From contig CAMAPQ010000019.1 of the NCBI GenBank assembly GCA_945860125.1, positions 1-37,174 of the forward strand: 37,174 nt of DNA. The letters run 5' to 3'. Each line of letters starts with the position of its first letter. Within the stretch, counting starts at the first letter, position 1. This DNA is from Klebsiella pneumoniae (GTDB lineage Bacteria; Pseudomonadota; Gammaproteobacteria; Pseudomonadales; CAMAPQ01). Positions 13,709 to 37,174 of the stretch are shown here, one piece after another. The translations under genes and the position numbers were made by a program. The notes under the pieces are model-generated. The model saw only the letters and a program-made list of their open reading frames with translations, did no database searches and had not been told where the DNA came from.

Positions 13709-13727
13709 TAAACCGCAATCTGTTTTA

Positions 13728-19241: not shown

Positions 19242-19700
19242 GTGAAAAATAAAATAAAATTAAAAAAAATTCAGAAAATTGTTGAATATTATGAACATAT
19301 CGAAAAAAAAAGCTTAAAAGAATTAGCGGATGCTCAAAATAAACTGGAGGCGGAAAAAGGCAAGCATTCAATGTTGAATCAGTATTATTTTGAATATGAT
19401 GAGGCGCATAAAAAGCAAATTAATGTTAAAGGCGTGAGTGTTACCATGCTCGCTAATGCCTCTTTTTTTTCTGGCCAATTACATCAAGCAATTGCTGATC
19501 AAGTTGGTAATGTTGCAAAAAAAGAGGCGGAGTGTGAGGCAAAAAAACAGGCGTGGCAAAAAGCTTATATCGCAAGAAATAAAGTGCAAAAAATTTTAGA
19601 AAAAGAACAAGCGAAGCTCGCTATTTTAGAAGACAGGCTTGAGCAGAAAAAGTTGGATGAGTTGGTTAATGTGATTAGTAATTTTAATAATCAGCACTAA
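19242..19700 (+). CDS. FliJ-like flagellar export chaperone (orphan)
   Basis: A 152-residue, almost entirely alpha-helical protein of FliJ length and heptad pattern (KLKKIQKIVEYYEHIEKKSL ... QNKLEAEKGK; C-terminal KEQAKLAILEDRLEQKKLDEL). FliJ is the stalk of the flagellar type III export ATPase complex and escorts chaperones. The family has little invariant sequence, so the call rests on length, helical pattern and signalling context. No fliI or fliH is nearby, although FliJ is normally encoded directly after fliI. The start is GTG at 19242 with a weak AGAG upstream. An unrelated coiled-coil protein is the alternative. Confidence 0.5.
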   Translation: MKNKIKLKKIQKIVEYYEHIEKKSLKELADAQNKLEAEKGKHSMLNQYYFEYDEAHKKQINVKGVSVTMLANASFFSGQLHQAIADQVGNVAKKEAECEAKKQAWQKAYIARNKVQKILEKEQAKLAILEDRLEQKKLDELVNVISNFNNQH

Positions 19701-21646: not shown

Positions 21647-21670
21647 TGATGACTTCTGCCTCCACGAACA

Positions 21671-22807
21671 TTAACAATTCTCAATCAGTTTATGAAAACG
21701 ATTTGAAATTTTAGAGATGTCTTCATATACATCTGCCCCTATATTGGCAATTTCGCTTATTTCTTTCATGCTACTTTCAATCATGAGCATAATTTTTTCT
21801 TCCTGCCTCTGACTAAGCGATAAGCCAAAAAGGGTTTCTTCCATATCTTCGCGCAAAGTGCCCATAGTTTGTTTTGTCAGGGTGCTATTTCTTTTCGCTT
21901 TTTCTGTGATGTGATCGAGGCTTTCTTTCGCTTCAGCAATAGCAGATCTTAAACCATCGACTCTTTCTTGTTGAACCTGCATTTCTAAACCAATTGATTT
22001 TATTCTGTTATCTGCTGAGTTAATAAATATAGCAAGGCTATCTTTTATTCTGCCATAAAATAAAGGGTTTTCAATTGGCATATTTTTAATGAGTATTGAA
22101 ATACGGTTTGCATTTATAATACAGCGGTTTTGTATTTCAATCAGTTTGCCTTTTTCTTTTGCAGCCAAAAGCAGTTTGCCTTCAATCTCACTTTCAGAGC
22201 TATTGCTAAAAGTGTGTTGAAAAAAACCATTTCGTATTTGTATGGTTGCAATTAGCCCCATTTCTTTGAGTGAATTAATGCATTCTTGCGCTAAGGCTTC
22301 ATAATTTTTAGCTGTCATGCTGCGCTCCATAAAGCGCACGAGAATGCCCATTTCACTATTGCTATTCATCGCTTCATACGCAGCAGTCACTGCATTTTTT
22401 GCATCTTCTTCTAAACGTTGCAGCTCTTTTTTAGCGCGTAAGCGTTCCTGAATTTTTGCGTGTAGCTGTTTATGATCAATGGGTTTGGTAATGTAACCCT
22501 CACCGCCCATTTGATAGGCTTTGAGCTGATCTTCTGCGCCATCTTCTGCTGAGATAAATATCACGGGAATATCGCGTGTTGCTTTATTTTCTTTTAGTTT
22601 TTGGCAAACTTGATAACCATCCATGTATGGCATATTCACGTCAAGCAAAATAATATCAGGTTTAAAAGAATTAACAGCAACCAGTGCAGATATGCCGCCA
22701 TCTACACAATGAACATTAAAATCATCTTCCAGTAGTGCTTCAATAAGCAAACGAATACTTAACGTATCATCAACGACCATTATTTTATTTTTTGGGTTAT
22801 TAGGCAT
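21671..22807 (-). CDS. Response regulator with long helical C-terminal region
   Basis: A 378-residue protein. The receiver (about 7-125) has MVVDD, phospho-acceptor Asp56 in ILLDVNMPYMDG, FISAED and Lys108 in YITKPID. A helical linker (about 125-160) leads to a roughly 120-residue domain without known motif. A second coiled coil follows (about 275-378; MQVQQERVDGLRSAIAEAKE ... SQRQEEKIMLMIESSMKEIS). There is no DNA-binding, GGDEF or phosphatase domain, so output is probably by protein contact. AGGAATAAA precedes the ATG. It is transcribed away from the chemosensory operon and in front of the 633-aa gene. CheA or the hybrid kinase is the obvious candidate donor. Confidence 0.85.
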   Translation of the reverse strand: MPNNPKNKIMVVDDTLSIRLLIEALLEDDFNVHCVDGGISALVAVNSFKPDIILLDVNMPYMDGYQVCQKLKENKATRDIPVIFISAEDGAEDQLKAYQMGGEGYITKPIDHKQLHAKIQERLRAKKELQRLEEDAKNAVTAAYEAMNSNSEMGILVRFMERSMTAKNYEALAQECINSLKEMGLIATIQIRNGFFQHTFSNSSESEIEGKLLLAAKEKGKLIEIQNRCIINANRISILIKNMPIENPLFYGRIKDSLAIFINSADNRIKSIGLEMQVQQERVDGLRSAIAEAKESLDHITEKAKRNSTLTKQTMGTLREDMEETLFGLSLSQRQEEKIMLMIESSMKEISEIANIGADVYEDISKISNRFHKLIENC

Positions 22808-22996: not shown

Positions 22997-23608
22997 ATGA
23001 GTTTCAGTATTAATAATCCCGGTAGCCGTGTATCAAACCCTGACTTGGATTGGACGCAGTTGCAAGAAACGATTGTGATGCTGTGCTTAGCTGCGACACA
23101 AATTGAAAGTTCAATGACGGAAAGTGATAGTTCTTTTGAGGAAATTACCGGCAATTCTTTGACAGCATCAATGCGCGTACAAAGTGTTATTGAAAGCCTT
23201 AATGAATTACGTGTTTTGCAAAAAGACAATAACCTTAGCGGTGCAGACGCGAAGTTACAACAGCTTATTAATAACTCTGAAGAAACCTTAACGTTAATGC
23301 AATCTACTTTTATCGCTTTACAATTTTATGATCGTTTTATTCAGCAGCTTGCGCATGTAAACGGTTCTATTCAAGGTTTGGGAAAATTAATGGGCGATGT
23401 TTCTCGTTTATCGCAACCTAATGAATGGCTGATTTTACAACAAAAAATTAAAGCTTCTTATTCAACAGAAATAGAAAGAGAAGTATTTGATAAAGTGGTT
23501 AAAGGCGTTGCGTTGGATGATATTGTTCTCGAATATAAAATGAAAAAGAAAAACAGCCAATTAAATGAAACAAATAAAGCATGTGAAGAAGATGACGAAC
23601 TTTTTTAA
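22997..23608 (+). CDS. Chemosensory-cluster protein of unknown function, possibly CheZ-like
   Basis: A 203-residue soluble, mostly helical protein, first gene of the operon. The central segment (LMQSTFIALQFYDRFIQQLA, then HVNGSIQGL) resembles the 'Q-x-x-D-R/x-x-Q' helix found in CheZ-type phosphatases and in several chemotaxis-associated coiled-coil proteins. The C terminus is acidic and ends ACEEDDELF, which could mimic the CheY-binding tail of CheZ. Overall similarity is too weak to name it. No other CheY phosphatase is encoded in the cluster, which makes the idea attractive but unproven. A strong ribosome site (AAGGAAGAGAGG) precedes the ATG. Confidence 0.6.
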   Translation: MSFSINNPGSRVSNPDLDWTQLQETIVMLCLAATQIESSMTESDSSFEEITGNSLTASMRVQSVIESLNELRVLQKDNNLSGADAKLQQLINNSEETLTLMQSTFIALQFYDRFIQQLAHVNGSIQGLGKLMGDVSRLSQPNEWLILQQKIKASYSTEIEREVFDKVVKGVALDDIVLEYKMKKKNSQLNETNKACEEDDELF

Positions 23609-23640
23609 GCTAAATAATAATACAGCGCAGGGGGAAGAAG

Positions 23641-23901
23641 ATGGATAACTTTCGCATTGAAATGAAAGAATGGTCTGATGTCAGAAGAATACAATCTTTC
23701 TATAGCATGATTAAAGAAAATAATAATAAGTGTATTGAATTTAATTTTGAAGGGGCCGCTTTTATTGACAGCGCTGTTTTTCAGCTACTCTTATCTTTAA
23801 GGCAATCTAAAACTTGGGCAGAGCGCGTGCGTTTTTTAAATGTGACGGACAATATAAAAGAAAATGCCGCTCTTTTGGGATTGAATACTTTGTTTGCTTA
23901 A
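23641..23901 (+). CDS. STAS-domain protein (anti-sigma-antagonist type), first copy
   Basis: An 86-residue single STAS domain. The core motif AFIDSAVFQLLLSL places Ser44 at the position that partner-switching kinases phosphorylate in SpoIIAA-like proteins. GGGGGAAG precedes the ATG, and it lies between the 203-aa gene and cheY. Compared with the second STAS protein at 34305-34610 it is shorter and diverged. It could be a competing substrate of the downstream kinase/phosphatase or an adaptor of the CheA array. Confidence 0.82.
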   Translation: MDNFRIEMKEWSDVRRIQSFYSMIKENNNKCIEFNFEGAAFIDSAVFQLLLSLRQSKTWAERVRFLNVTDNIKENAALLGLNTLFA

Positions 23902-23964
23902 AAAAATACCGATAAAAAAGCAAAAAAATAAAAGAATTTTTAGTGTGAGAAGTGGAGCGATAAA

Positions 23965-24327
23965 ATGGCAAAAATATTAAGCGTCGATGACTCAAACTCG
24001 GTAAGGCAAATGGTGGCTTTTGCGCTTAAAAGTGCAGGCCATGAAGTAGAGCAGGCAGAGGATGGCGTCGAAGCTTATACCAAAGCAGTAGCAGATCAGT
24101 TTGATCTTATTTTATCTGATGTAAATATGCCTAATATGAATGGAATAGAGCTTACTAAAAAACTAAGGGAAACAGAGCAGTACAAGTTTACACCCATTAT
24201 TTTGCTTACCACTGAATCTGGCTCTGATATGAAGATGCAAGGGAAAGAAGCGGGTGCCACGGGTTGGATTGTCAAACCGTTTAATCCTGAAAAACTCTTA
24301 TCAACGATCCAAAAAGTGATTTCTTAA
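23965..24327 (+). CDS. cheY: Single-domain response regulator CheY
   Basis: A 120-residue stand-alone receiver, the expected output or phosphate sink of the adjacent CheA. VDDSNSVRQ supplies the acidic pocket, Asp52 in LSDVNMPNMNG is the acceptor, and Thr82 (LLTTES) and Lys104 (IVKPFN) complete the site. GGAG lies eight bases before the ATG. It directly precedes cheA, as in Che2/F7-like clusters. Whether it acts on flagellar motors or another target cannot be told here. Confidence 0.93.
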   Translation: MAKILSVDDSNSVRQMVAFALKSAGHEVEQAEDGVEAYTKAVADQFDLILSDVNMPNMNGIELTKKLRETEQYKFTPIILLTTESGSDMKMQGKEAGATGWIVKPFNPEKLLSTIQKVIS

Positions 24328-24394
24328 CGTTTATTAAAATAATGAAAAAAATAGAATTTGAATGACCAAGGAAGAATAAAAGGGAATAAAAAGT

Positions 24395-26443
24395 ATGGCA
24401 ATTGATATTTCTCAATTTATGGATGCCTTTGTTGAAGAGAGTATTGAAGGGCTTGATGTTATTGAAAGCACGTTAGTAGGCGCAGATACAAAAGCGCTTG
24501 ATAACGATACCATTAGCGTCATTTTTCGTGCTGCTCACTCTATTAAAGGTGGGGCAGGTACGTTTGGTTTAAATGAAATTTCACAATTTACCCATGTTGC
24601 TGAAACATTGCTTGATCAAATTCGTTCAGGTGCACGTATTTTTGAACAAAGTTATGTCGAGTTATTATTAGAATCAGTCGATTGTTTACGCGAAATGTTT
24701 GGCTGTGTTCAAAATAAAAAACCGATTGAAGTGCCGCGTTCTAGTAAAATTGTCGCTGATTTTGAGCGGGTGCTTGCTTCTAATACCGTGTCTTTAGCAG
24801 AGAATGCAGAAATTACAAAAGATAAAAATAATATAGTCGGTTGGAATATTAGTTTTAAACCTGATATTGCTTTATTTAAAACAGGTAATGATCCTTTACG
24901 TCTTTTTAAGCAATTAAAAAGTTTGGGCGTTGTGACGGTGAGTGCAGATGATGCTGCCTTGCCTGATTTTGACTTGCTCGATCCCTTAGCTTGTTACCTT
25001 ACTTGGACGATTAAAGTCGTTTCTGACAATGGTATTCCCCTTAGTGAATTGAAAGAAATATTTGAGTGGATTGAAGATGAATGTGACATTCAGTATGAAC
25101 CGCTTGTAAATATATCGCTTGTCTCTTCTGTAGCTGATGTTGTCATGACAAAAGCTGCGAAGCCTGTTGAGCATGTTGACGATAAAAAAGAAGCAAAATC
25201 AGGCATGGAAAGCTCTTCTATTAGAGTCGCCATTGAAAAAATTGATCAGCTCGTTAACTTGGTGGGTGAGCTAGTTATTACGCAATCCATGTTGGGTGAA
25301 GTAGGCGAAAATTTTGATTTATCTAAGCTATCAAAATTAAGAGAAGGTTTAGCCCAGCTTGAATTTAATACGCGTGAATTACAAGAAAGTGTGATGCGTA
25401 TTCGCATGGTTCCTATCAGTTTTATTTTTAGTCGCTTCCCAAGAATGGTGCATGATTTAGGGAAAAAACTAGGTAAGCAAGTTGAGCTTAAATTGTTAGG
25501 TGAAGGCACTGAATTAGATAAAACGGTAATGGAAAAATTAACAGATCCTTTAGTGCATATTGTTAGAAATTCATTAGATCATGGCTTAGAAATGCCTGAT
25601 GTAAGGCAGGATAATAATAAAGAGGCCACAGGCTTACTAACGTTAAATTCTTATCATCAAAGTGGTCATATTGTGATTGAAGTGAGTGATGATGGGAAGG
25701 GCATTGATACCATGCGTTTACGCGCTAAAGCAATTAAAAATGGTTTAATTACTGAAGAAGATGCCTTAACTCATCAAGAATTAGTCGATCTTGTTTTTCA
25801 CCCTGGCTTATCAACCGCAGAAGCCGTAACGGATCTTTCAGGCCGAGGCGTGGGTATGGATGTCGTGAAGAAAAACATTCAAGGCATTGGCGGCTCAGTT
25901 GAAGTTAATTCAACCACGGGTGCGGGCACGATGATTCGTATTCGTTTACCACTAACGCTTGCCATATTAGAAGGGCAGTTAATTTGCTTGGCAAATGAAA
26001 TTTTTATTATTCCCCTTGTTAATATTATTGAGTCGCTACAATTAAATGCCAGTGCTTTAAATAAGGTGGTGGGTAATTGGGATGTCATGCAGTTACGCGA
26101 AGAATATGTGCCGATTATCGAACTTGCTGAAGTGTTTCGTTTAAATGGTGCACGGTTACAATCAAAAAATAAATTAATTGTTATTGTTGAGAACGAGGGT
26201 AAAAAATTTGGGCTGGTCGTTGATGAATTATTAGCACAGCAGCAGGTGGTGATTAAGAGTTTAGAAGCCAATTATCAACAAGTCTCTGGCATTTCAGGCG
26301 CAACGATTTTGGGTGATGGAACTGTATCACTTATTTTGGATGTGCCTAGTATTTTAAAAATGGCAGATTTAAAAATGTTAGAAAAAGAAAACAGCAATTT
26401 TGCTGGAAAAGAAACAGAAATCAATACGCCACAAGCGGCTTAA
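24395..26443 (+). CDS. cheA: Chemotaxis histidine kinase CheA
   Basis: A 682-residue kinase. P1/Hpt domain (1-115) with His48 in FRAAHSIKGGAGTFG; a P2-like region (about 145-240); P3 dimerisation (about 270-335: SIRVAIEKIDQLVNLVGELV); P4 ATP domain (about 335-520: HIVRNSLDHGLE, DDGKGID, GRGVGMDVVKKNI); P5 CheW-like domain (about 525-660) that couples it to receptors. All phosphotransfer residues are intact. It phosphorylates CheY and CheB encoded in the same operon and sits in a membrane or cytoplasmic receptor array. Confidence 0.97.
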   Translation: MAIDISQFMDAFVEESIEGLDVIESTLVGADTKALDNDTISVIFRAAHSIKGGAGTFGLNEISQFTHVAETLLDQIRSGARIFEQSYVELLLESVDCLREMFGCVQNKKPIEVPRSSKIVADFERVLASNTVSLAENAEITKDKNNIVGWNISFKPDIALFKTGNDPLRLFKQLKSLGVVTVSADDAALPDFDLLDPLACYLTWTIKVVSDNGIPLSELKEIFEWIEDECDIQYEPLVNISLVSSVADVVMTKAAKPVEHVDDKKEAKSGMESSSIRVAIEKIDQLVNLVGELVITQSMLGEVGENFDLSKLSKLREGLAQLEFNTRELQESVMRIRMVPISFIFSRFPRMVHDLGKKLGKQVELKLLGEGTELDKTVMEKLTDPLVHIVRNSLDHGLEMPDVRQDNNKEATGLLTLNSYHQSGHIVIEVSDDGKGIDTMRLRAKAIKNGLITEEDALTHQELVDLVFHPGLSTAEAVTDLSGRGVGMDVVKKNIQGIGGSVEVNSTTGAGTMIRIRLPLTLAILEGQLICLANEIFIIPLVNIIESLQLNASALNKVVGNWDVMQLREEYVPIIELAEVFRLNGARLQSKNKLIVIVENEGKKFGLVVDELLAQQQVVIKSLEANYQQVSGISGATILGDGTVSLILDVPSILKMADLKMLEKENSNFAGKETEINTPQAA

Positions 26444-26458
26444 TTTAAGAGGTGATGT

Positions 26459-27010
26459 ATGGACGAGCGGCAGGCTGGTGCAGAAAAAAATAAGCAAGCG
26501 CAAAATCATGCGATGAATAAAAAAGAAATTAGCGCGCAGTACCTCACTTTTATTATGTCAAACGAAGAATATGGCGTGGATATTTTACGTGTAAATGAAA
26601 TTCGTGGTTGGGAAAAAACAACGCCGTTACCCAACTCAGCAAGTTACGTAAAGGGTGTTATTAATCTTCGTGGGGCAATTATTCCCATTGTTGATTTGCG
26701 TGAAAAATTTGGCATTCAAAATTTAGAGTATGGTCAAACAACGGTTGTGATCGTGTTGCAAGTTGAAAGTAAGACGGGTGAGCGTGTGATGGGCATTGTT
26801 GTTGATGCGGTGTCTGACGTTTGTTCAGTATCAGAAGAAGAAAAAAAAGCAGCGCCTGAAGTAGGGGGTGGCGGGGCTAATTTTATTTCTGGTCTTGTCG
26901 CTGTTAACGAAAAAATGGTGATTTTGCTCGATATTGATCAGCTGTTGGGCATGGATGATATTAATGCTGATTTATCTCAAGCCCTAGCACAAATTAAAAC
27001 AATTCATTAG
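26459..27010 (+). CDS. cheW: Chemotaxis coupling protein CheW
   Basis: A 183-residue CheW-domain scaffold linking CheA to receptors. Conserved features are YLTFIMSNEEYGVDILRVNEI, the PNSASYVKGVINLRGAIIP motif with its receptor-contacting Arg, and GIVVDAVSDV. A polar N-terminal extension of about 20 residues (DERQAGAEKNKQAQNHA) and an acidic C-terminal extension go beyond the minimal domain. An AGAGGTGAT ribosome site is present, and the gene starts 15 bases after cheA. Confidence 0.96.
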   Translation: MDERQAGAEKNKQAQNHAMNKKEISAQYLTFIMSNEEYGVDILRVNEIRGWEKTTPLPNSASYVKGVINLRGAIIPIVDLREKFGIQNLEYGQTTVVIVLQVESKTGERVMGIVVDAVSDVCSVSEEEKKAAPEVGGGGANFISGLVAVNEKMVILLDIDQLLGMDDINADLSQALAQIKTIH

Positions 27011-27055
27011 GCCTTATTTTACAAAGAAGATTTAAATAACAAGGAGAGAAAAAGA

Positions 27056-30000
27056 ATGATTTCAAAAATACTCAATAAAATGAGCATAAAACAGAAGCTA
27101 TTTACGTTATGTTTTTTAATGTCACTGCCAACCATCGCACTATTGTCGATTTATGTAAAGAATCTAAATGATGGGATTGAATTCACTAGAATTGAAAGAG
27201 CTGGCGCTGAATATATTCATCCGGGCACAATGCATCTATATACCGCATTGGTTAATCATCGCAGTTATTACAATGTGTTTTTTGTTGGTGGCCCTAATAT
27301 ATTTCCTGGGAAAATCAGTGAAACAGAATCACAAATTAATAAAGGTTTTGATGAGCTTGAAAAACAAATTGCGATCTATCATAAAGACGTTGATGTATCG
27401 AGTGAATTTAAGCAATTAAAGCAAGATTGGCAAACCTTGCAACAGGAAAATGCAAAAATTACTCAATCAGCTTCTTTGATTCGCCATAGTAAATTAATTA
27501 AAGATGTTGCATTTTTTGTTGCTAAAGTAGCAGAAAAATCCGGTATGGCGCTCGACCCACAAGCCGTTTCTTACTACACCATTAATATTGCAACAGAAAA
27601 ACTCTTCAAATTACTTGATCGCCAAGGTCGTATTCGTTCGTTATCTTTTGAAGTGCAATCAGATCCAGCTAAAGCCAGTGATCAGGTGAAAAGTATTATC
27701 TTTGGTGCAGCGGATGATATTAAAGATCTGAAAATATTTATCAATGATGGTTACAATGTTATTTTAAACGCTGATCCCACTTTAAAGGCTGAAATACAAC
27801 CAGAATTAGATAAGCTCAATGTAGGTATAGATGATATAGCTCAGATGGCTAACGAAGTGCTGTCGCAAACGTTCAAAGGTTCTCCTGAAGATGTGTTTAT
27901 GCGTGGCCATAAAGTGGTAACCCAAGCAGGCGATTTTTTGAATTTAGCAATGGAATCGTTAGATACGACTTTAGACAACCGCGTTGCACATGATACGAGA
28001 GCTAGAAATTTATCTTTGGCTTTTGGCCTTGGCATAATGGGTTTAGTATTTTTCTTTGCTTTTGTCATGCAACGTCGCATTCAGCTGGCCATTAAAACTT
28101 TAGAGCAAGGCTTTAAAAATATTGAAAATCGCGAGCTAAATAATGTGTTACCTGTGGTATCACAAGATGAATTAGGGCAATCAATTATTGCCTTGAATAG
28201 TGTAACGGCGATGCTTGCAAAATCAACTCATGAAATAGACGAAAAAAATAAAATTGCTGCTCGTTTTATTCAAGCACTGAATGCCTGTGATACCCCTGTC
28301 ATGATGGCTGATAAAGATTTTAATATTATCTTTATGAATGAAAATGTGAAAAAAATGTTAGAGAAAAGAGAAAAACAACTTCAATCTGTACTCCCTATAT
28401 TTAGAATGGATAAATTAATGGGGGCATCGATTGATCAGTTTCATAAAGTGCCTTCTCATCAAAGAAATCTTATCAGTGGTTTAAAAGGCTCTCATAAAAC
28501 AGAATTAAAGCTAGCAGGTCTTACGTTTGGTTTAATTGCAACGCCGCTTTTCTCTGAAAATAACGAGTTTTTAGGTGCGGTGGTTGAGTGGTTAGATAAA
28601 ACTGAAGCACTTGAAATTCAAAACAAAGAAAGAATGATTGCTGAAGATAATGCCCGTGTTAAGCAAGCGTTGGATAACGTTACCAGTAACACCATGATCG
28701 CCGATATTAATTACAACATTGTTTATATGAATCATTCCTTGAAAAAAATGTTAGGTGATGCTGAGGCAGATATTCGTAAAGTGCTTACAAGTTTTGATGC
28801 AAAAACTTTAATGGGTAGAAATATGGATGTGTTCCATCGCAGCCCGCAGCATCAAAGAGCATTAATGGATAACTTAAAAGCAGCACATAAAACTGAGCTT
28901 TCGATCGGCGGCCGTACCCTTGCGTTAATTGCAAGCCCTGTTAATGATGAAACCGGTAAACGCATTGGTAGTGTGGTGGAATGGTTGGATCGCACCCAAG
29001 AAGCGGGTATTGAAAAAGAAATTGGTGAGCTTGTCGGTTCTGCTAGTAAAGGAGATTTAACCAGCCGTCTTTCAGAGCGTGGTCGTGATGGATTCTTCTT
29101 ACGCTTAAGTCAAGGTTTAAATCAGTTAGTGGGCGTGATGGAGCATGTAGTAGAGGATACGACGCGAGTATTAGCTGCTTTATCACATGGTAAATTAACC
29201 GAAACCATTGACTCTGATTATCAAGGCGCATTCTTAAAACTGAAAAATGATGCCAATAATACGGTTGATCGCTTAACTGAAACGATTAGCAGTATTCGTC
29301 AAATCTCTCGTGAAGTTTCTAGCGGTGCCCAAGAAATTGCGCAAGGTAATGCAGATTTAAGCCAGCGTACTGAAGAACAAGCCTCTAGCCTTGAAGAAAC
29401 GGCTTCTAGCATGGAACAGATGACGGCGACGGTTAAACAAACCGCAGAGAATGCGCAGTCTGCAAAAGCCTTAGCGGTCATCGCAAAAGATACCGCACAA
29501 CACGGTGGAAATGTTGTTAGCGAAGCAGTTACGGCGATGTCTGGCATTAATGAATCCAGCAAGAAAATTGCCGATATTATCGGTGTCATTGATGAGATTG
29601 CCTTCCAAACTAATTTGCTGGCCTTAAATGCAGCGGTAGAAGCGGCAAGAGCGGGTGATCAAGGGCGTGGTTTTGCGGTTGTTGCCGGTGAAGTACGTAA
29701 TCTTGCCCAACGTTCAGCGGCGGCGGCTAAAGAGATTAAAGAGCTGATTCGAGACAGCGTGGGTAAAGTGCAAAATGGTACGGAGCTTGTTAATAAATCC
29801 GGCACCACTTTAAACGAGATCATGAAATCTGTTGAAAAAGTAGCAGGCACGGTGGCAGAAATTTCTAATGCCGCGCAGGAGCAACGATCAGGTATTGAGC
29901 AGGTTAATACCGCAATTACGCAGATGGATACGATGACTCAGCAAAACTCAGCATTGGTAGAAGAAGCGTCTGCTGCAAGTGAGGCAATGGCAGGACAAGC

Positions 30001-30184
30001 TAAAAAATTGCTTGAAATGGTCAGCTTTTTCACCCTTTCTGCTGAAGATGAAAAAATGGTAGCAAGCGCCGGTGGCGCTTCTTCAAGAAGCAAAGCAAAT
30101 GCTGGGGGAAAAAGTGGCGCTTCAAGAAAAAGCAGTAAAGTCATGAAGCCTAATGAGGGTCAGGATGAGTGGAGTGAGTTTTAA
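27056..30184 (+). CDS. Methyl-accepting chemoreceptor with two PAS domains and a C-terminal CheR/CheB tether
   Basis: A 1042-residue receptor. TM1 (about 13-33), a periplasmic helical sensor of about 285 residues, TM2 (about 319-340), HAMP (about 341-395), PAS1 (about 400-520), PAS2 (about 530-655), a second HAMP-like linker (about 660-735) and the MCP signalling hairpin (about 740-1000). Methylation-helix sequence [17 protein letters not shown] and the tip [22 protein letters not shown] are canonical. The two PAS domains are clearly duplicated ([19 protein letters not shown] versus [19 protein letters not shown]; both end EWLD-x-T). The last five residues, EWSEF, fit the W-x-x-F pentapeptide that binds CheR/CheB. 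It combines a periplasmic input with two cytoplasmic PAS inputs; no haem or flavin ligand can be named from sequence. Confidence 0.95.
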
Positions 30185-30186
30185 TT

Positions 30187-30285
30187 TTCTTAGGGCTTAT
30201 GCAAAGTTGCCTAGCTTTGTTATCGCGCTTCGCAGTACGAGTTGTACTGTTTTCATCGCGATGCCTTGCTGGGACAATTTTTTGT
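30187..30285 (+). repeat. Intergenic hairpin repeat B inside the chemosensory operon
   Basis: It begins TTAGGGCTTATGCAAAGTTG and contains a nested hairpin: ATCGCG (30222-30227) with CGCGAT (30257-30262), and GCAGTAC (30232-30238) with GTACTGT (30244-30250). It fills the unusually long gap between the receptor and cheR. Part of it recurs at 15051-15098 on the other strand. Confidence 0.6.
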
Positions 30286-30335
30286 TTTTTATGTCGTGAA
30301 GAAGTAGAAAATCAATGTTTTAAAGGTAAGGCAGT

Positions 30336-31187
30336 ATGGGCTTGAATAAAAATATTCCTCAAGCTAGTGAAGCAGAAAAAGAGTTTTTACTCACAGAAAA
30401 AGATTACCAGTTTATTCAAAAGCTTGCTTATGATGAAACGGGTATTGTTTTAAGTGATCAAAAGCGCGATATGGTTTATGCGCGACTTGTTCGCCGTTTA
30501 AGAAAATTGCAGTTTAAAAATTTCTCTGAATATTGTGAATATTTACAGAAAAATTTTGCGATCGAGCTGACTGATTTTGTAAATAGTATTACAACAAATT
30601 TGACGTTTTTCTTCAGAGAAGAGCATCACTTTGAAATGCTCGTTAAATTAATTATTCCTGAAATACAAAAAGCGAATAAAACTGAAAAAAGGATAAGAGT
30701 GTGGTCTGCGGGTTCTTCAACAGGTGAAGAACCTTATTCAATTGCAATGACGCTCTGTGAATTAACGCAGCTTAGTAACTGGGATGTGAAAGTCTTAGCA
30801 ACGGATTTAGATTCAAATGTTTTAGCAACAGGGATGGCGGGTATTTATAGTGAAGAACGCATTCAATCTATAGATAAAACGCGTATTAAAAAGTTTTTTA
30901 AACCGCATGATACTGACTTTCAAGTGGTGGATTCTGTTAAATCAATGATTTCTTTTAAGCAATTAAATTTGATGCAAGAATGGCCCATGAGCGGCAAGTT
31001 TGATTTAATTTTCTGTAGAAACGTTGTGATTTACTTTGATAAAGAAACCCAAAAGAAACTGTTTAATCGATATGCTGATTATTTAAATGAAAATGGTTAT
31101 TTGATTATTGGTCACTCTGAGAGTTTGCATGGTGTGAGTGATCGCTTTAAGTTGGTGGGAAAAACGGTATATAAAAAAATAAAATGA
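30336..31187 (+). CDS. cheR: Chemoreceptor glutamate methyltransferase CheR
   Basis: A 283-residue S-adenosylmethionine-dependent enzyme that methylates receptor glutamates during adaptation. It has the N-terminal helical domain (about 20-80: GIVLSDQKRDMVYARLVRRL), the SAM motif VWSAGSSTGEEPYSIAMTL (about 120-140), LATDLDSNVL, and FDLIFCRNVVIYF before the C-terminal strands, where the beta subdomain contacts receptor pentapeptides. A TAAGG ribosome site lies upstream. The partner receptor's EWSEF tail fits tethered binding. Confidence 0.96.
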   Translation: MGLNKNIPQASEAEKEFLLTEKDYQFIQKLAYDETGIVLSDQKRDMVYARLVRRLRKLQFKNFSEYCEYLQKNFAIELTDFVNSITTNLTFFFREEHHFEMLVKLIIPEIQKANKTEKRIRVWSAGSSTGEEPYSIAMTLCELTQLSNWDVKVLATDLDSNVLATGMAGIYSEERIQSIDKTRIKKFFKPHDTDFQVVDSVKSMISFKQLNLMQEWPMSGKFDLIFCRNVVIYFDKETQKKLFNRYADYLNENGYLIIGHSESLHGVSDRFKLVGKTVYKKIK

Positions 31188-31210
31188 CTTAAGCTTTAAG
31201 GCTATTTATT

Positions 31211-31867
31211 GTGAAATTAATTAAAGACTCATTAAAAACACCTGCGTCAAAGAACTTTGAAACCATTCCAGGTTTCGAGCACATCAATCGTTATTATGAT
31301 CGTACGCTTGATATTCCTGCGGCTAAAATTTTACCTGGTGAACTATTTGTTTCAATGCAAAATGAGGTGATTGTGACGGTGCTAGGCTCGTGTGTTTCAG
31401 CTTGTATTCGTGATACAGAAAGCGGCATTGGCGGTATGAATCATTTTATGTTGCCCATTCAAGAAAGTTTACAAAATAGAGTGGGCGCTGATTTAAGTGA
31501 CTCTACGCGTTACGGTAATTGGGCAATGGAATATTTAATTAATACTATTTTAAAATTCGGTGGAAAAAAACAAAATCTTGAAGTAAAAATTGTGGGGGGC
31601 GGGCGTGTTATTTCTGCCATCAAAAATATGGATGTGGGCAAAAAAAATGTTGAATTTGTAAGAGAGTATTTAAAAAAAGAAAGGCTTTTTATTGTTGCTG
31701 AAGATGTTGGCGATATTTTTCCACGCAAAGTTTACTATTTTCCAAAAACGGGCGTTGTAAAGGTGAGAAAAATACATACCACCTCAAACGATACAATTTA
31801 TGAAAGAGAAAAAGAATATGCGGAGAATATTAAGAATCAAAATGGCAATGATGTTGAGTTGTTCTAA
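31211..31867 (+). CDS. cheD: Chemoreceptor glutamine deamidase CheD
   Basis: A 218-residue enzyme that deamidates receptor glutamines and, in some bacteria, regulates CheC. Catalytic Cys61 lies in VTVLGSCVSACIRD and His78 in GGMNHFMLP; DSTRYGNWAMEYLIN and the GGGRV motif match the family. It starts at GTG 31211 with TAAGG nine bases upstream. A 40-residue N-terminal extension (SLKTPASKNFETIPGFEHIN) precedes the usual domain. It lies between cheR and cheB. Confidence 0.95.
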   Translation: MKLIKDSLKTPASKNFETIPGFEHINRYYDRTLDIPAAKILPGELFVSMQNEVIVTVLGSCVSACIRDTESGIGGMNHFMLPIQESLQNRVGADLSDSTRYGNWAMEYLINTILKFGGKKQNLEVKIVGGGRVISAIKNMDVGKKNVEFVREYLKKERLFIVAEDVGDIFPRKVYYFPKTGVVKVRKIHTTSNDTIYEREKEYAENIKNQNGNDVELF

Positions 31868-31901
31868 AAGGGAATAAGTCACTTGTTAAAGGAAATTTAG
31901 T

Positions 31902-33002
31902 GTGCCTAAGAAAATAAAAGTATTAGTGGTTGATGATTCGGCGATCATGCGTGCACTACTGTCTGAAATTATTTCTTCTGAGAATGACATGATTGTTGTG
32001 GATACCGCAGAAGATCCTTTTGATGCCAGAGAAAAAATAAAAAAATATAGTCCAGATGTTATTACGCTTGATATTGAAATGCCGAAAATGGATGGGCTTT
32101 CTTTCCTTAAGAATTTAATGCGTTTACATCCTATGCCTGTGATTATGATTTCAAGTTTGACTCAGCAAGGTGCGCAAGTAACGTTAGACGCGCTTGCTTT
32201 TGGTGCGGTTGATTATGTTCCTAAACCGGTTGTTGATGTCCCTGAGCGTTTAGAAGAAATTCGTTATGAAATTACCGATAAAATACGCGCTGCTGCAATT
32301 GCTAATATAAAAGCACTTGAACGTAAACACGAAAGTGAAGTAAGAAAGACAATAGATGATGCAACGTCTAATGATTTTTTAACCCAAAAAAAGAAAAATA
32401 ATACGACCTATTCATGCCGAGCAAATGAATTAATTGTCATTGGTGCTTCAACCGGTGGTACAGAAGCAATTCTCGAAGTGCTAAAAGATTTACCTGAGAA
32501 TTCCCCACCTATTGCAATTGTTCAGCATATTCCGCCGAATTTTAGTTCATCTTATGCAAAAAGATTAGATCGTTTTTGTGCGGTTAAAGTTAAAGAAGCT
32601 GAAAATGGCGACATTTTAAAGCCCGGTTGTGCTGTTCTAGCCCCCGGTGATTTCCATTTAAAATTGGCTAGAAAAAAAGAGACGCAAGAATTAATGTGTG
32701 TTTTAACGCAGGATGAAAAAGTAGGGCGTCATCGCCCTGCGGTTGACGTGTTGTTTGATTCGGTTACGAAATTGCTAGGGCTTAATGTGACAGCCGCTTT
32801 ATTGACAGGTATGGGAAAGGATGGCGCTACAGGATTACTTAACTTAAAAAATAGCGGCGCTTTTACCCTCATTCAGGATGAAGAGAGTTGCGTGGTGTGG
32901 GGTATGCCACAAGCTGCTTTTAATTTAGAGGCGCATTGTGAAATTTTGCCATTAAATAAAATTGCTTCTCGTCTTATTACCCTTACTAACCGCATGAAAT
33001 AA
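31902..33002 (+). CDS. cheB: Protein-glutamate methylesterase CheB
   Basis: A 366-residue adaptation enzyme: a receiver (about 1-125; VVDDSAIMR, Asp57 in TLDIEMPKMDG) joined by a linker to the methylesterase domain (about 175-366) with catalytic Ser183 (IGASTGGTEA), His209 (IVQHIPP) and Asp307 (GMGKDGATG). Phosphorylation by CheA should activate it. It starts at GTG 31902 after AAAGGA. Confidence 0.97.
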   Translation: MPKKIKVLVVDDSAIMRALLSEIISSENDMIVVDTAEDPFDAREKIKKYSPDVITLDIEMPKMDGLSFLKNLMRLHPMPVIMISSLTQQGAQVTLDALAFGAVDYVPKPVVDVPERLEEIRYEITDKIRAAAIANIKALERKHESEVRKTIDDATSNDFLTQKKKNNTTYSCRANELIVIGASTGGTEAILEVLKDLPENSPPIAIVQHIPPNFSSSYAKRLDRFCAVKVKEAENGDILKPGCAVLAPGDFHLKLARKKETQELMCVLTQDEKVGRHRPAVDVLFDSVTKLLGLNVTAALLTGMGKDGATGLLNLKNSGAFTLIQDEESCVVWGMPQAAFNLEAHCEILPLNKIASRLITLTNRMK

Positions 33003-33017
33003 CTTTGAGGGGTTAAA

Positions 33018-34202
33018 ATGTTATCTCACGAAATTAAGCGTTTTTTTCTTTCAAATTGGATTTTTGTTGTTGGTTTAAGTGTGATTTTTATCATTTGTGT
33101 TAGCTTAACAGGCATGAGTCAAATTGCTGCTTTTTCTGTTTTGCTGTGCGTCGTTATTTATTATGTTTTTGCCATATGGCGTATGAATACTTTTTTATTG
33201 GCGCTAGAGAAAAAAAATCAAGCACATTGTGTGCAAGAAGTAACAGAGTCAACTGAAGTGGCGAGTCTTTTTACGCAATTAATTCCAGATGTATCAACTG
33301 TATTAACACAGACACGACCAGAAGAAAAAAAAGAAGAACAATCGTTAGAAATGCCTGTTTTACCTAATTCTGCCTTATTAAGATCTTTTGTTGATAAAAG
33401 AGTCAGTCATTCACGAACATCTGATCTCATCAGGGTAATTATTACAACACTAAATGGCCAGAAAGAGCTTTATTCTGTTAATGATTTTTCTATTCTTGTC
33501 GCAGGTATTACTTTTCATTATGTGAAGTTTGTTTCTGAAATTAGTCAAGTGAGTGTGACGCATCAGCTTAAAATTAATCAGTTTGTCGATCAGTTTAAAA
33601 ACATGGATGATCATTTATTTGATGTGAGATTTGCAGCGGCTGAGTCCGCTTTATTAGCGTTAAATAATCTGTTTGATGCCAGTATGGTTGGTATGGGTGG
33701 GCAAGGGATTTCAGCGATTGCAAAACAAATATATGGTTTTTCAGTGCAGTCTAACAAAGCGACGCATCGTATGCGCTCAGGGCTGGAAGAAACGGAAAAA
33801 TCATTGCGTGATTTACAGGAAAAATTGAAGGGTAAAATTGATGAAGAAATCAATAGCGCCCTGCTTGAGAAAGGAAAAATAGATAGCTTTTTAAGTGAAT
33901 TTACGGCCTTAAATAGAATGAATATCATGTTTAATCGACCTGAATGGGAGGGGGGGAAAGAGCGTGATGAACTTATTGCTTTTGCGGCCCATCGTTGCCA
34001 TGAATTAGTACAAAATATTGAAGGTGCATTCTTTGATATGGCGCGTCATTTTCAGCTGATTAAAAACATTTGGAAAAAGAAATTATTAGGCGGTAATAAG
34101 CATGAAAGTTATCTTGATGATTCATTGTTATTAAACTGTCAAAGCATAGAGTTAGAAAATAATAAAAATTTTACGCCACATTTCACCAGGGTTGAAAAGT
34201 AG
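33018..34202 (+). CDS. Two-TM, receptor-like membrane protein of the chemosensory cluster
   Basis: A 394-residue protein with two adjacent N-terminal transmembrane helices (about 13-30 and 36-56) and almost no periplasmic loop. A soluble region of 330 residues follows. Part of it (about 185-275: VDQFKNMDDHLFDVRFAAAE ... SALLALNNLFDASMVGMGGQ) is a long helical pair that looks like a shrunken receptor or coiled-coil module but lacks the canonical MCP tip. Comparable proteins sit near F7-type che clusters, often annotated as receptor-like. It starts 15 bases after cheB, so it belongs to the operon. Function unknown. Confidence 0.65.
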   Translation: MLSHEIKRFFLSNWIFVVGLSVIFIICVSLTGMSQIAAFSVLLCVVIYYVFAIWRMNTFLLALEKKNQAHCVQEVTESTEVASLFTQLIPDVSTVLTQTRPEEKKEEQSLEMPVLPNSALLRSFVDKRVSHSRTSDLIRVIITTLNGQKELYSVNDFSILVAGITFHYVKFVSEISQVSVTHQLKINQFVDQFKNMDDHLFDVRFAAAESALLALNNLFDASMVGMGGQGISAIAKQIYGFSVQSNKATHRMRSGLEETEKSLRDLQEKLKGKIDEEINSALLEKGKIDSFLSEFTALNRMNIMFNRPEWEGGKERDELIAFAAHRCHELVQNIEGAFFDMARHFQLIKNIWKKKLLGGNKHESYLDDSLLLNCQSIELENNKNFTPHFTRVEK

Positions 34203-34304
34203 TCTATCTTTAATGTGTTAGGAGAAAAAATAAGCAAAGGTTCTTTCTTTAGTAAGAACGCAAAGTTGCTAATAAAATTAGATTGTTTCATTTAGGAGTG
34301 AGTT

Positions 34305-34610
34305 ATGGCTATTTGGTCAAATGAATCTGCAAACTCAAAAGAGCTTGTGATTAAAGTTCAAGGCCGTTTTGATTTTAGTGCCCACCAAGAATTTCGTGAT
34401 GCTTATGAGAAATCTCGCGATAAACCAGAATGTTACGTTGTTGATATGAAAGAGGCGACTTACCTTGATAGTTCTGCTTTGGGTATGTTGCTTTTATTAA
34501 GAGATCACGCAGGCGGAGATAATTCACAAATTAATATTATTAACTGTAATAGTGAAGTTAAAAAAATATTAACCATTTCTAATTTTGAGCAACTCTTTGG
34601 CATTGCTTGA
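34305..34610 (+). CDS. hsbA: STAS anti-sigma factor antagonist, HsbA-like
   Basis: A 101-residue single STAS domain, the length of Pseudomonas HsbA. In YLDSSALGMLLLLRDHAGGD, Ser56 follows Asp55, the position phosphorylated in this family. In Pseudomonas the unphosphorylated form binds an anti-sigma factor (FlgM) and the phosphorylated form a diguanylate cyclase, so switching sets motility against biofilm. The next gene encodes the matching kinase/phosphatase and the next an Hpt protein, the hsbA-hsbR-hptB set. TAGGAGTGAG precedes the ATG. The symbol is by homology of sequence and order. Confidence 0.82.
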   Translation: MAIWSNESANSKELVIKVQGRFDFSAHQEFRDAYEKSRDKPECYVVDMKEATYLDSSALGMLLLLRDHAGGDNSQINIINCNSEVKKILTISNFEQLFGIA

Positions 34611-34614
34611 GTTG

Positions 34615-34742
34615 TATACCCTTCGTACTTGAAAACACGGCATTGTTGGCAGCTCTCGTTCACCCCAATCACATAGTCTATCTATGCTCATGGGGTTCTC
34701 TCCCTTGCCGCCTCCCCGTGATTCCAATTACTTTGGGTATAT
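34615..34742 (+). repeat. Palindromic intergenic repeat A, full copy
   Basis: 128 bp with imperfect terminal inverted repeats (TATACCCTTCGTACTTGAA / TTCCAATTACTTTGGGTATA) and nested arms: CACGG 34636 / CCGTG 34716, GGC 34648 / GCC 34707, ACCCCA 34662 / TGGGGT 34691, CATAG 34672 / CTATG 34682. No ORF. It lies between the hsbA-like and hsbR-like genes, so its transcript would fold into a long hairpin. From memory, similar elements of this size and sequence are scattered through Yersinia, Serratia and Photorhabdus genomes. Confidence 0.8.
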
Positions 34743-34792
34743 AAAAAATGAAGTGAGATAGTGAAAATGGTGTAGATGAATGGGGTGATGGG

Positions 34793-36532
34793 GTGATTGT
34801 GAACGACGATAGTCTGGATATCTTAATTGCGGATGACAACGATTCAGATCGTTTTATTTTAACCACCATACTAAAAAAATTAGGGCATAAAGTTCGTGCA
34901 GCTCAGGATGGTGTTGAAGCGCTTGTGCTGTTTGAAGATAAAAGACCAGATCTTATTTTGCTCGATGCTCTCATGCCAAGAATGGATGGTTTAGATTGTG
35001 CTCGTCAGATGAAGAATTTATCTGGCGATAGTCTTATTCCTATTATTTTCCTCACCTCTTTAAAAGATGCCAGTTCTCTTGCTGATTGTTTGGAGGCGGG
35101 AGGCGATGACTTTTTAAGTAAACCGTATAGTAAGGTTATTTTGCAAGCGAAAATACAGGCTTTCATCCGCATGAGAAAGCTGCATGTGGTTGTGCAAAAT
35201 CAGCGTGATCAGATTAGTCAGCACAATGATCATTTAGTGCATGAGCAAGAAATTGCAAAAATGGTATTTGATAATATTGCCCATCCTGGCTGTATTAATG
35301 CTAAAAATATCACCTATCTTTTATCGCCTATGGCCGTTTTTAATGGTGACATGTTGTTAGCTGCAAGGGATCCTTCCGGTGGCATGTATGTTTTACTAGG
35401 TGATTTTACCGGCCACGGTTTACCTGCTGCAATTGGTGCGATGCCCGCTTCTGAAATATTTTATGGAATGACCAATAAAGGTTTTTCTATGGAAGAAATT
35501 TTAAGAGAAATTAATAAAAAATTAAAAACTATTTTGCCGGTTAATGTTTTTTGCTGTATGTGCATGATCAGTATGAATTTCCGTGAAAAATGGGTAAAGC
35601 TTTGGGTGGCAGGTTTACCTGATATTTTTATTTATCGCGTTAAAAATAGAGCGATTGAGCATATTAAATCAAGAAGTTTGCCTTTAGGCGTTTTATCGGA
35701 TGAACGTTTTAAAGTTGAACCTGAAATTTATGAGCTTGAGTATGGTGATCGTCTTTATTTATGGTCTGATGGTATTCATGAGGCTAAAGATGATGCAGGT
35801 GAGATGTTTAGCACCACAGAGTTACAGCGTATTTTTAAACAGAATGTGGTACCTAATCGGTTATTTGAAGAGATAAAAACAGGGGTGCGACAGTTTACGG
35901 GCGGCAAAGCGCAGGATGATGATTACACAATGGCTGAGGTAATTATGTTAACGCCGGAAATCATGGAAGACGAAGCAGGCCAAGAGATTAAAACAAAAAA
36001 AATTACTAATAATCAGCCTATTATGGACTGGACGATTAGTTGTGAGCTGCGTACCGATACATTAAAAACATTTAATCCTTTGCCTTTAATGACCCATATT
36101 ATTATGGAAGTGCCTGGGCTAAAAGCCCACAGTGGAAAACTTTATACGATTCTTGCGGAGCTTTATTCTAATTCATTAGAACATGGTATTTTAGGTTTAA
36201 GTTCAAATCTTAAAGAGTCTGCGGCAGGTTTTTCGCAGTATTATCGAGAGCGCGATGAGAAGCTAAAAGCAATGAACTTTGGTACGTTAACGGTTATTTT
36301 AACCCATACGCCCAGTAAAGACGGTGGCCAATTATTTATTCGTATTGAAGATTGTGGCGTTGGTTTTGACTATCAAAATAAAATGGCAGGGCTTTCACCA
36401 ATAGACGGTTACTGTGGACGAGGTATTCCTTTGGTGCGTACTTTATGTGAGCGACTTGAATACAAAGGAAAAGGCAATATTGTCGAAGCTGTTTATGCGT
36501 GGGCTTATCGTCCAGTAGGCAGCGCTAATTAA
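34793..36532 (+). CDS. hsbR: HsbR-like response regulator: REC, PP2C-type phosphatase, serine kinase
   Basis: A 579-residue switch protein. Receiver (about 5-125: ADDNDSDRF, Asp58 in LLDALMPRMDG, Lys110 in LSKPY), linker coiled coil (about 125-160), SpoIIE/PP2C phosphatase (about 165-390; metal-binding GDMLLAARD, GDFTGHGLPAA, LWSDGIHEA, DDDYTMAEV) and a C-terminal GHKL serine-kinase domain (about 430-570; ELYSNSLEHGILGL, IEDCGVGFD, GRGIPLVRTL). In Pseudomonas HsbR phosphorylation via HptB flips it from kinase to phosphatase toward HsbA. The start is GTG at 34793 or GTG at 34799; GGGGTG upstream suits the first. It follows the repeat and precedes the Hpt gene. Confidence 0.87.
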   Translation: MIVNDDSLDILIADDNDSDRFILTTILKKLGHKVRAAQDGVEALVLFEDKRPDLILLDALMPRMDGLDCARQMKNLSGDSLIPIIFLTSLKDASSLADCLEAGGDDFLSKPYSKVILQAKIQAFIRMRKLHVVVQNQRDQISQHNDHLVHEQEIAKMVFDNIAHPGCINAKNITYLLSPMAVFNGDMLLAARDPSGGMYVLLGDFTGHGLPAAIGAMPASEIFYGMTNKGFSMEEILREINKKLKTILPVNVFCCMCMISMNFREKWVKLWVAGLPDIFIYRVKNRAIEHIKSRSLPLGVLSDERFKVEPEIYELEYGDRLYLWSDGIHEAKDDAGEMFSTTELQRIFKQNVVPNRLFEEIKTGVRQFTGGKAQDDDYTMAEVIMLTPEIMEDEAGQEIKTKKITNNQPIMDWTISCELRTDTLKTFNPLPLMTHIIMEVPGLKAHSGKLYTILAELYSNSLEHGILGLSSNLKESAAGFSQYYRERDEKLKAMNFGTLTVILTHTPSKDGGQLFIRIEDCGVGFDYQNKMAGLSPIDGYCGRGIPLVRTLCERLEYKGKGNIVEAVYAWAYRPVGSAN

Positions 36533-36572
36533 TAAAGGCTAAGCTTTTCTATCGAATAACAGGAAGAATGTG

Positions 36573-36920
36573 ATGGAACTAGAACATTTAAATATGGCCG
36601 CACTTAATGAGTTAAAAGAAGTCATGGAAGATGATTTTAATTTGCTTGTTGACACTTATATTAGTGATTCAATAAAACGAGTGGCAGACATTAAAGAAGC
36701 TTTTAAACAGGCGGATGCTGATCGTTTAAGTAAAGCGGCGCATGGCTTAAAGGGTAGTTGCAGTAATATTGGTGCGACTTGTCTTTATGAGATATGTAAG
36801 GAAATTGAGGTTTTTGCCCGTAATAATGAGCTACAAAAAACGGAGTCTTTTGTAAATAGTTTGGATAGTGAGTTTGTTGCAGTGAGCAGTATGCTGGCTG
36901 CTTTTATTAAGGCCTCTTAA
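36573..36920 (+). CDS. hptB: HptB-like histidine phosphotransfer protein
   Basis: A 115-residue Hpt domain, the size of Pseudomonas HptB. The acceptor is His57 in KAAHGLKGSCSNIGA. MEDDFNLLVDTYISDSIKRV and CLYEICKEIE form the surrounding four-helix bundle. I start at ATG 36573, six bases after AGGAAG, rather than the in-frame GTG at 36570. It should carry phosphate from hybrid kinases to the receiver of the HsbR-like protein encoded directly upstream. The 928-aa kinase in this window already has its own Hpt, so the donors are probably other hybrid kinases. Confidence 0.88.
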   Translation: MELEHLNMAALNELKEVMEDDFNLLVDTYISDSIKRVADIKEAFKQADADRLSKAAHGLKGSCSNIGATCLYEICKEIEVFARNNELQKTESFVNSLDSEFVAVSSMLAAFIKAS

Positions 36921-37017
36921 ACCTTGTTTACGGCGTTATTTTAGCGCCCATTCGTTATTTATTTTTTTTCAGTTTGACAAGGTAATATCAGCATCTAGCT
37001 TAAAAATATGAGTGGAA
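36921..37017 (+). other. Downstream end of the operon
   Basis: No gene is seen. A weak stem (GGCGTT / AGCGCC, about 36932-36952) followed after some bases by eight T at 36962-36969 may be a poor terminator. Confidence 0.25.
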
Positions 37018-37164
37018 CGTCATCCTCGCGAAAGCGGGGATCCAGATTTAATCTGGTTTTACTTAAAAATGCACCCTATTATTCAATAAGAAAGTGAAAT
37101 ATGAAGAAAGTTTGTCCTGGTTTTAATATTTAAAAACTGGATCCCCGCCTTCGCGAGGATGACG
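37018..37164. repeat. Inverted-repeat element with 28-bp ends
   Basis: The arms CGTCATCCTCGCGAA... (37018-37045) and ...TTCGCGAGGATGACG (37137-37164) are reverse complements with one mismatch and enclose 91 AT-rich bases with no ORF. A smaller inverted repeat CCAGAT/ATCTGG (37042-37056) extends the left arm. It is GC-rich at the ends, unlike its surroundings. Elements with this 'GTCATCC-CGCGAA-GCGGGGATCC' end are widely dispersed in many proteobacteria. Confidence 0.85.
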
Positions 37165-37174
37165 AATTCTATGC

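Follow-up and report, generated by a model that had tools for sequence, protein, structure and literature searches.

An F7-type chemosensory operon ending in a predicted HsbA-HsbR-HptB switch, a conserved variant of a known system

We analyzed a chemosensory operon on contig CAMAPQ010000019.1 (37,174 nucleotides, hereafter the window). The window spans this contig (C19) in full; the genome (GCA_945860125.1), placed in the Pseudomonadales, has 125 contigs and 2.58 Mb. Thirteen open reading frames (ORFs) on the + strand, from position 22997 to 36920, probably form a stage 1 variant of the F7 chemosensory operons with an HsbA-HsbR-HptB partner switch at its end; array and switch would be co-expressed modules with separate phosphate inputs, a reading that we hold with moderate confidence. 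In relatives, switches of the HptB-HsbR-HsbA type decide whether the cell swims or takes up biofilm or stress programmes. The genes, their catalytic residues, the F7 membership of CheA, the conserved synteny and the flagellar-operon placement in relatives are directly visible in the sequences compared. The features are as follows.

19242..19700, + strand: fliJ (PF02050, E 5.6e-21), the sole FliJ match in the genome
22997..23608, + strand: P2, 203 residues, predicted helical hairpin of an unnamed family
23641..23901, + strand: STAS1, front single-STAS protein (PF13466, 20 bits, under cut-off), Asp43-Ser44
23965..24327, + strand: cheY of the F7 cluster (PF00072, E 4.1e-29)
24395..26443, + strand: cheA, F7 class, with Hpt, H-kinase_dim, HATPase and CheW domains
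26459..27010, + strand: cheW, single copy in the cluster (PF01584, E 4.4e-37)
27056..30184, + strand: Aer2-like chemoreceptor with HAMP, two PAS, HAMP and Tsr-like signalling domain, C-terminal EWSEF
30336..31187, + strand: cheR (PF01739, E 4.2e-66)
31211..31867, + strand: cheD (PF03975, E 4.4e-30)
31902..33002, + strand: cheB (PF01339, E 6.1e-60)
33018..34202, + strand: divergent, probably McpA-like receptor with a decayed methyl-accepting chemotaxis protein (MCP) tip
34305..34610, + strand: STAS2, HsbA-like anti-sigma antagonist (PF01740, E 6.9e-12), Ser56
34793..36532, + strand: HsbR-like REC-PP2C-HATPase protein (PF00072; PF07228, SpoIIE; PF13581, HATPase_c_2)
36570..36920, + strand: HptB-like Hpt protein (PF01627, E 2e-13), His58
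36932..36948, + strand: terminator-like hairpin 3′ of the Hpt gene, from a consensus scan only

The original prediction described a complete cheY-cheA-cheW-MCP-cheR-cheD-cheB set on one strand, running into STAS, REC-PP2C-kinase and Hpt genes in the order hsbA-hsbR-hptB, with a second STAS gene ahead of cheY so that STAS genes bracket the array. ORF order and Pfam/NCBIfam domains bear this out for every gene named (PF01740, then PF00072/PF07228/PF13581, then PF01627 at the operon end). The full order is P2-STAS1-cheY-cheA-cheW-receptor-cheR-cheD-cheB-divergent receptor-STAS2-[REC-PP2C-kinase]-Hpt, and includes two genes that the prediction had lacked: P2 at 22997-23608, before STAS1, and the divergent receptor at 33018-34202, between cheB and STAS2. 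The front STAS assignment is weak on its domain score alone (20 bits against a cut-off of 29.2), but the slot ahead of cheY was filled in all 18 relatives in which that side is visible, four of which had contributed to the STAS1 profile. Gaps between the genes range from 15 to 182 bases; internal promoters are possible because of the two largest, of 151 bases (receptor to cheR) and 182 bases (STAS2 to hsbR).

We surveyed 293 genomes of the window's order. An hsbR match (E up to 1e-60) was found in 128 and a cheD match (E up to 1e-10) in 93, the window included in both totals. Linkage was counted, with the window excluded, in the 97 genomes whose hsbR match reached at least about 486 bits, which left out lower-scoring second, CrsR-like copies and fragments. 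With cheD as a stand-in for the array, 29 of these genomes, spanning ten families, had cheD within 10 kb of hsbR, 29 had it elsewhere only and 39 had no cheD match; the 68 unlinked genomes are an upper bound, since contig ends (e.g. in G292 and G150) can hide linkage. The neighbourhood survey proposed with the original prediction thus shows the claimed linkage of the STAS and switch genes to the array to be conserved. Array genes were seen in 21 of the 22 linked genomes examined. In the other (L044), the genes matched are fliG-H-I-J, a cheY-like gene, cheD, STAS2, hsbR and hptB, with no match to cheA, cheW, cheR or cheB.

Gene order was compared in 28 loci. Sixteen of the 21 array-linked ones had been picked for the closeness of cheD and hsbR, so that the comparison measures order and not frequency; the other five (L043, L045, L046, L047 and L050) came from a choice by hsbR only. 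In relatives, the che and switch block forms part of the flagellar operon: fliJ precedes STAS1 in 18/18 loci with that side visible, and fliK follows hptB in 17 of the 21 array-linked loci (it was not found in L157, L158, L172 and L173). The hptB gene comes after hsbR in every array-linked locus. It also did so in 17 of 20 loci outside the window that had given the strongest hsbR matches in the first search; cheW is single in all 19 array-linked loci where it can be seen. In the window, 3.3 kb separate fliJ from the che block downstream, and this interval holds two genes on the opposite strand. Because of these genes and of the terminator-like hairpin past the Hpt gene, the window block seems to have been split from the flagellar operon.

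In a tree rooted on the CrsR-like rows, HsbR proteins with and without a linked array are interspersed, and the insertion point is the same throughout. A recent insertion of the che block is therefore not favoured; repeated loss fits better, as judged from the tree and the insertion point and not by a formal test, and L044 resembles a partly lost block. Array and switch might nevertheless have done no more than gather in the fliJ-fliK interval of the flagellar operon, sharing expression and no signalling. Both lie within this operon in relatives, HsbR persists with no cheD nearby, and in Pseudomonas species apart from P. aeruginosa, hsbA, hsbR and hptB share a flagellar region with fliK (Valentini 2016, PMC5085249). 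However, a STAS and PP2C pair has remained next to the F7 array in two subtypes, one in the flagellar operon (21 loci) and one in four loci with no flagellar match (L168-L171, see below), as well as in the described stages 1 and 2 (PMC7184735). Mere co-location is thus a doubtful explanation.

A tree of 32 CheA proteins placed that of the window within a 24-row clade (98/95), together with E. coli CheA and those of other F7-type loci; six F6-locus CheA proteins, the CheA of contig C58 and the pilus-type CheA lay outside. The smallest marked group around the window CheA (98/96) contains flagellar-operon loci of families f29 and f22, in a tree where several long branches, the window's included, were flagged. 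An F6-like system is encoded elsewhere in the genome, split over contigs C67, with CheZ and a piece of CheA, and C92 (L071), with cheA and, as judged by translation, cheB and two ORFs each of motor type and cheW type. The C92 CheA groups with five F6-locus CheA proteins at 100/100. A further che operon on contig C58 (L070, 10536-16359), read from translations and cut by the contig end, has the order cheA-cheW-short receptor-cheY-cheR-cheB, and contig C40 (L182) holds a pilus-type CheA frame of 2217 residues. In all, the 2.58 Mb genome contains four chemosensory systems.

Since the F6-like system with CheZ is present, the F7 array need not be the one that controls the motor. It has to be asked whether the F7 array is itself the swimming-control system, the HsbRA part only tuning flagellar gene expression; the Tsr-like signalling domain and periplasmic part of its receptor do resemble those of later F7 stages that run the motor (PMC7184735). 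Both the F6-like system and the lack of a Pfam CheZ match among the F7 operon proteins scanned speak against this, and we consider it very improbable.

Residues 532-741 of the Aer2-like receptor, covering the second PAS domain and the HAMP part that follows, matched the Aer2 entry 3vol (E 3.8e-64), and the signalling domain (residues 739-1001) aligned without gaps to the chemoreceptor I chain 3zx6. The Tsr signalling domain is of the 36H class, which the window receptor would share. A simple hydropathy scan predicted two membrane segments, at residues 16-34 and 319-337, separated by about 285 residues, in contrast to the Aer2 receptors described so far. A similar pair occurs in the receptors of L046 and in one of L149, compared to a single segment in the second L149 receptor and none in L047 and L050. 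FH and EW motifs are kept in both PAS domains; heme binding by Aer2 PAS domains through such His and Trp residues has been described in Shewanella, Vibrio and Pseudomonas (PMC9855816).

The product of 33018-34202 matched 4jpb over residues 181-266 (E 1.8e-4) and PF00015 with 15 bits, under the cut-off. It has two N-terminal hydrophobic segments and occupies the slot of the McpA-like genes found in 6 of the 21 array-linked relatives. The possibility that it is an unrelated membrane protein was rejected in favour of a decayed receptor on the strength of the 4jpb match, which gives moderate support only. An Aer2-type receptor is present in some of the array-linked loci and missing from the cheW-cheR interval in others. 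In most of them either an McpA-like gene (L043, L157, L158, L172, L173) or an Aer2-type gene (L046, L047, L050, L160 and others) was matched, seldom both; both are present in the window and in L165.

The catalytic positions of the partner switch are conserved. STAS2 is 67-79% identical to its counterparts in five relatives, and its Asp55-Ser56 pair is kept in all 28 loci, the window included; Ser56 is the phosphorylation site of HsbA (PMC6482189). The six catalytic positions of HsbR are conserved in 27/27 proteins, except for the receiver Asp (26/27, L171 being without it), and the Hpt His is conserved in 23/23. As in HptB-HsbR-HsbA clusters, a REC-PP2C-kinase, a STAS protein with a phosphorylatable Ser56 and an Hpt protein with its His lie together. 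At the front of the operon, 21 of 22 STAS proteins, the window's among them, have a Ser or Thr right after the invariant Asp, and a profile comparison of the STAS1 and STAS2 families was only suggestive (hhalign E 2.8e-4, probability 41%). The genome also encodes RpoS (467.5 bits) and FlgM (43.8 bits), both above cut-off and both named targets of the HptB-HsbR-HsbA switch. A sigma-factor match of 89 bits with one internal stop, upstream of cheZ on contig C67, may be FliA, although no FliA model was searched.

The original prediction went on to suggest that array and switch make up one circuit, with CheA phosphorylating the HsbR-like receiver or the kinase acting on both STAS proteins. Taken together, with a direct transfer from CheA to HsbR, these steps would form a closed circuit. 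The linkage of array and switch is indeed tight and conserved, and a Ser or Thr follows the Asp of both STAS proteins in nearly all loci. In Shewanella oneidensis, moreover, Che1 and CrsA/CrsR form one transcription unit proposed to act on RpoS (Fortier 2022, PMC9855816; Sci Rep 2019, PMC6482189). That unit shares with the window F7 che genes, a STAS protein and a REC-PP2C-kinase, the single transcription unit being deduced from spacing in our case; it differs in being of stage 2 and in having no Hpt among the ten locus genes listed in the accessible text, where the window has one.

Four loci of our survey (L168-L171) are of this kind. Their CrsR-like proteins are 29-34% identical to the window HsbR and score 244-365 bits with it, compared to 543-813 bits for the complete array-linked proteins. 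The gene order of L168, with two cheW genes, is the one published for stage 1, and L169 follows that published for stage 2; L170 runs into a contig end, and L171 carries its array and its switch genes on opposite strands. Neither hptB nor any flagellar gene was matched in the four loci. A link from CheA to CrsR would be more plausible there because of the missing hptB match, which lends the closed circuit some support. The window, judged by its genes, is of the HptB-bearing subtype and not of the CrsA-CrsR type that lacks Hpt alongside.

For this subtype, HptB is favoured over CheA as the phosphate donor of HsbR: hptB is a constant partner (beside hsbR in 21/21 array-linked loci), the trio persists where no cheD is nearby (up to 68 of the 97 hsbR genomes), and the receiver is much alike with or without an array. 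When 21 linked and 14 unlinked HsbR receivers were compared, their majority residues agreed at 99 of 120 columns (first helix, 9 of 12), versus 49 of 120 between HsbR and the four CrsR-like proteins, a similarity that is partly phylogeny. The likeness of the receivers and the interleaving of linked and unlinked proteins also indicate that HsbR is kept without the array. Direct phosphotransfer from CheA to HsbR is not supported by these comparisons and not favoured, which makes the closed circuit unlikely.

We therefore return to an array and a switch with separate inputs, whose mechanism we infer from known families. The membrane-anchored Aer2-like receptor, with its two heme-type PAS domains, would sense oxygen or redox state and control CheA, which would phosphorylate the F7 CheY and CheB. 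On a separate path, hybrid kinases would charge HptB, which in turn would phosphorylate the HsbR receiver, and HsbR would switch between phosphorylating and dephosphorylating HsbA on Ser56. The state of HsbA would then decide between the freeing of FlgM/FliA, for swimming, and RpoS-type programmes. Array and switch would be expressed together and serve the same swim-or-settle decision. Their physical meeting point, if there is one, would most likely be STAS1 or CheY, and not the HsbR receiver.

Several points weigh against this interpretation. It rests on sequence, the HsbR-like and HptB-like proteins being named from their Pfam domains and conserved residues. Co-transcription is deduced from spacing alone, in spite of the two larger gaps, and the regulation of the block may differ because it has left its usual fliJ-fliK neighbourhood in this genome. 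The similarity of the receivers leaves room for CheA as a second donor of HsbR, and the sigma-factor match that may be FliA holds an internal stop codon. Lastly, the function of F7 systems in stages 1 and 2 has been called unclear (PMC7184735).

The front ORF, P2, had no Pfam or NCBIfam match at 0.01. Its AlphaFold model is a helical hairpin (predicted local distance difference test score 78.8, predicted template modelling score 0.58), and its family is present in 10 of the 56 genomes compared from the order, its own included, and in 47 named loci. P2 was suspected of being a CheZ on three grounds. Nine sequences of the family share invariant Q109, D112 and Q116 residues, which we take to resemble the CheZ motif; they have a conserved acidic-hydrophobic C-terminus; and the C-terminus of the short C58 receptor, to which P2 is related (E 3.3e-7, against 0.0047 for the best reversed decoy), matched one ORF of a CheZ locus (E 1.9e-5). 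The suspicion failed its control: with the P2 profile, CheZ proteins did not outscore reversed decoys. No match was obtained in a direct profile comparison of P2 and CheZ (hhalign) or between PF04344 (CheZ) and the window P2 alone, and CheZ was not among the matches listed for 38 family members, which covered 25 of 103 Pfam families. The P2 copy of a Chromatiales locus (L149), which reads QFYGRQSQ and lacks the conserved Asp, also counts against CheZ. A structure search returned generic helical hairpins of many folds; CheZ was not among the matches listed, which excludes nothing. Since the relation to CheZ failed its control, we leave P2 as an unnamed family; that it may be a phosphatase of phosphorylated CheY is a guess from motif and position.

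The C58 receptor itself (408 residues, 13288-14514) has a C-terminal module in common with P2 and scored 20 bits with Pfam CheZ, against a cut-off of 30.7. With a CheZ profile, it did no better than decoys.

Nor is P2 a fixed part of F7 operons, as F7-like che genes lie alongside in only 3 of the 47 named loci. In the two Methylomonas loci among these (L142, L143), P2 is about 3 kb beyond the F7-like cluster, and in the Chromatiales locus L149 it comes after a STAS gene and ends both cluster and contig. A CheV-like ORF adjoins P2 in 5 other loci; the remaining 39 comprise 9 with receptor-type neighbours, 9 with receiver-type or related ones and 21 in which no query matched. P2 and hsbR are on separate contigs in G021, G016, G006, G048, G037 and G011. 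In the F7-like clusters of Methylomonas (L142, 1186-7080) and Chromatiales (L149, 1355-9951), cheW and the STAS gene are separated by a ParA-like gene. A LQFEDMARQ stretch in the Methylomonas McpA-like receptor aligns weakly with the P2 family (domain E 0.01, whole protein 0.49).

Some further elements of the window are worth recording. The contig stops 254 bases past the Hpt gene, and its last part (37005-37174) is hairpin-rich and resembles an interspersed repeat, perhaps the reason why assembly stopped; the consensus scan found 19 terminator-like sites in the region, compared to 11.0 in shuffled sequences. The interval between fliJ and the che block encodes, on the − strand (19745-22807), a 633-residue protein with no Pfam match and a protein whose sole Pfam domain is a receiver. 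Some 5 kb before the che block, and likewise on the − strand, 15098-17884 encodes a PAS-HisKA-HATPase-REC-Hpt hybrid kinase, a possible phosphate source for HptB. Between 11914 and 13478 (− strand) there is a REC-REC ORF and, 26 bases on, a second ORF that carries a HATPase domain but gave no match to HisKA; the pair may be one interrupted hybrid kinase gene or two genes.

The closest described relative of the operon is the stage 1 F7 cluster, with the order STAS-cheY-cheA-cheW-aer2-like receptor-cheR-cheD-cheB-mcpA-like receptor-STAS-serine phosphatase (Ortega 2020, PMC7184735), in which the bracketing STAS genes have already been described. The two agree in their order from the first STAS to the serine phosphatase, in an F6 system elsewhere in the genome and in an Aer2-like PAS-HAMP receptor, whose 36H class is on our side presumed. 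They differ in that the window has one cheW instead of two cheW-like genes and adds the Hpt gene and the front ORF. The gene in the slot before STAS2, with its decayed MCP tip, may correspond to the McpA-like receptor. In addition, the stage 1 receptor is without a periplasmic domain, whereas that of the window has two predicted membrane segments, and the location of the relatives' block inside a flagellar operon is not mentioned in the accessible text of PMC7184735. Because of the single cheW and the periplasmic receptor part, we file the operon as a variant and not as a member of stage 1.

With the HptB-HsbR-HsbA system of Pseudomonas, the window shares three proteins in one cluster, the HsbA Ser56 and the flagellar neighbourhood (PMC5085249, PMC6482189); the accessible text of these sources describes no F7 array between fliJ and hsbA, although a cheR-like and a cheW-like gene adjoin the HsbR cluster of P. 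aeruginosa. No published description of the combined fliJ-F7-HsbA-HsbR-HptB-fliK block was found in the search listings or in the accessible passages of the papers cited. The operon varies a layout known before; it is conserved, informative and solid, modestly new and not surprising.

A more far-reaching possibility, which we think doubtful, is a distinct Pseudomonadales F7 lineage in the fliJ-fliK interval, with a membrane-spanning heme-PAS array, a two-STAS switch that sets the FliA/RpoS balance and P2 as an undescribed family of phosphatase-like proteins acting on phosphorylated CheY. The output of ancestral F7 arrays was called unclear in two 2020 papers (PMC7184735, PMC7534058), and this lineage, if real, would supply that long-sought output. 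The membrane-spanning Aer2-like receptor bears on the membrane anchoring of F7 arrays, listed as a question in PMC7534058. More generally, the presence of F7 genes and a complete HptB-HsbR-HsbA switch in a flagellar operon leads to a testable proposal, namely that the array may feed the swim-or-settle decision through sigma factors and not through the motor.

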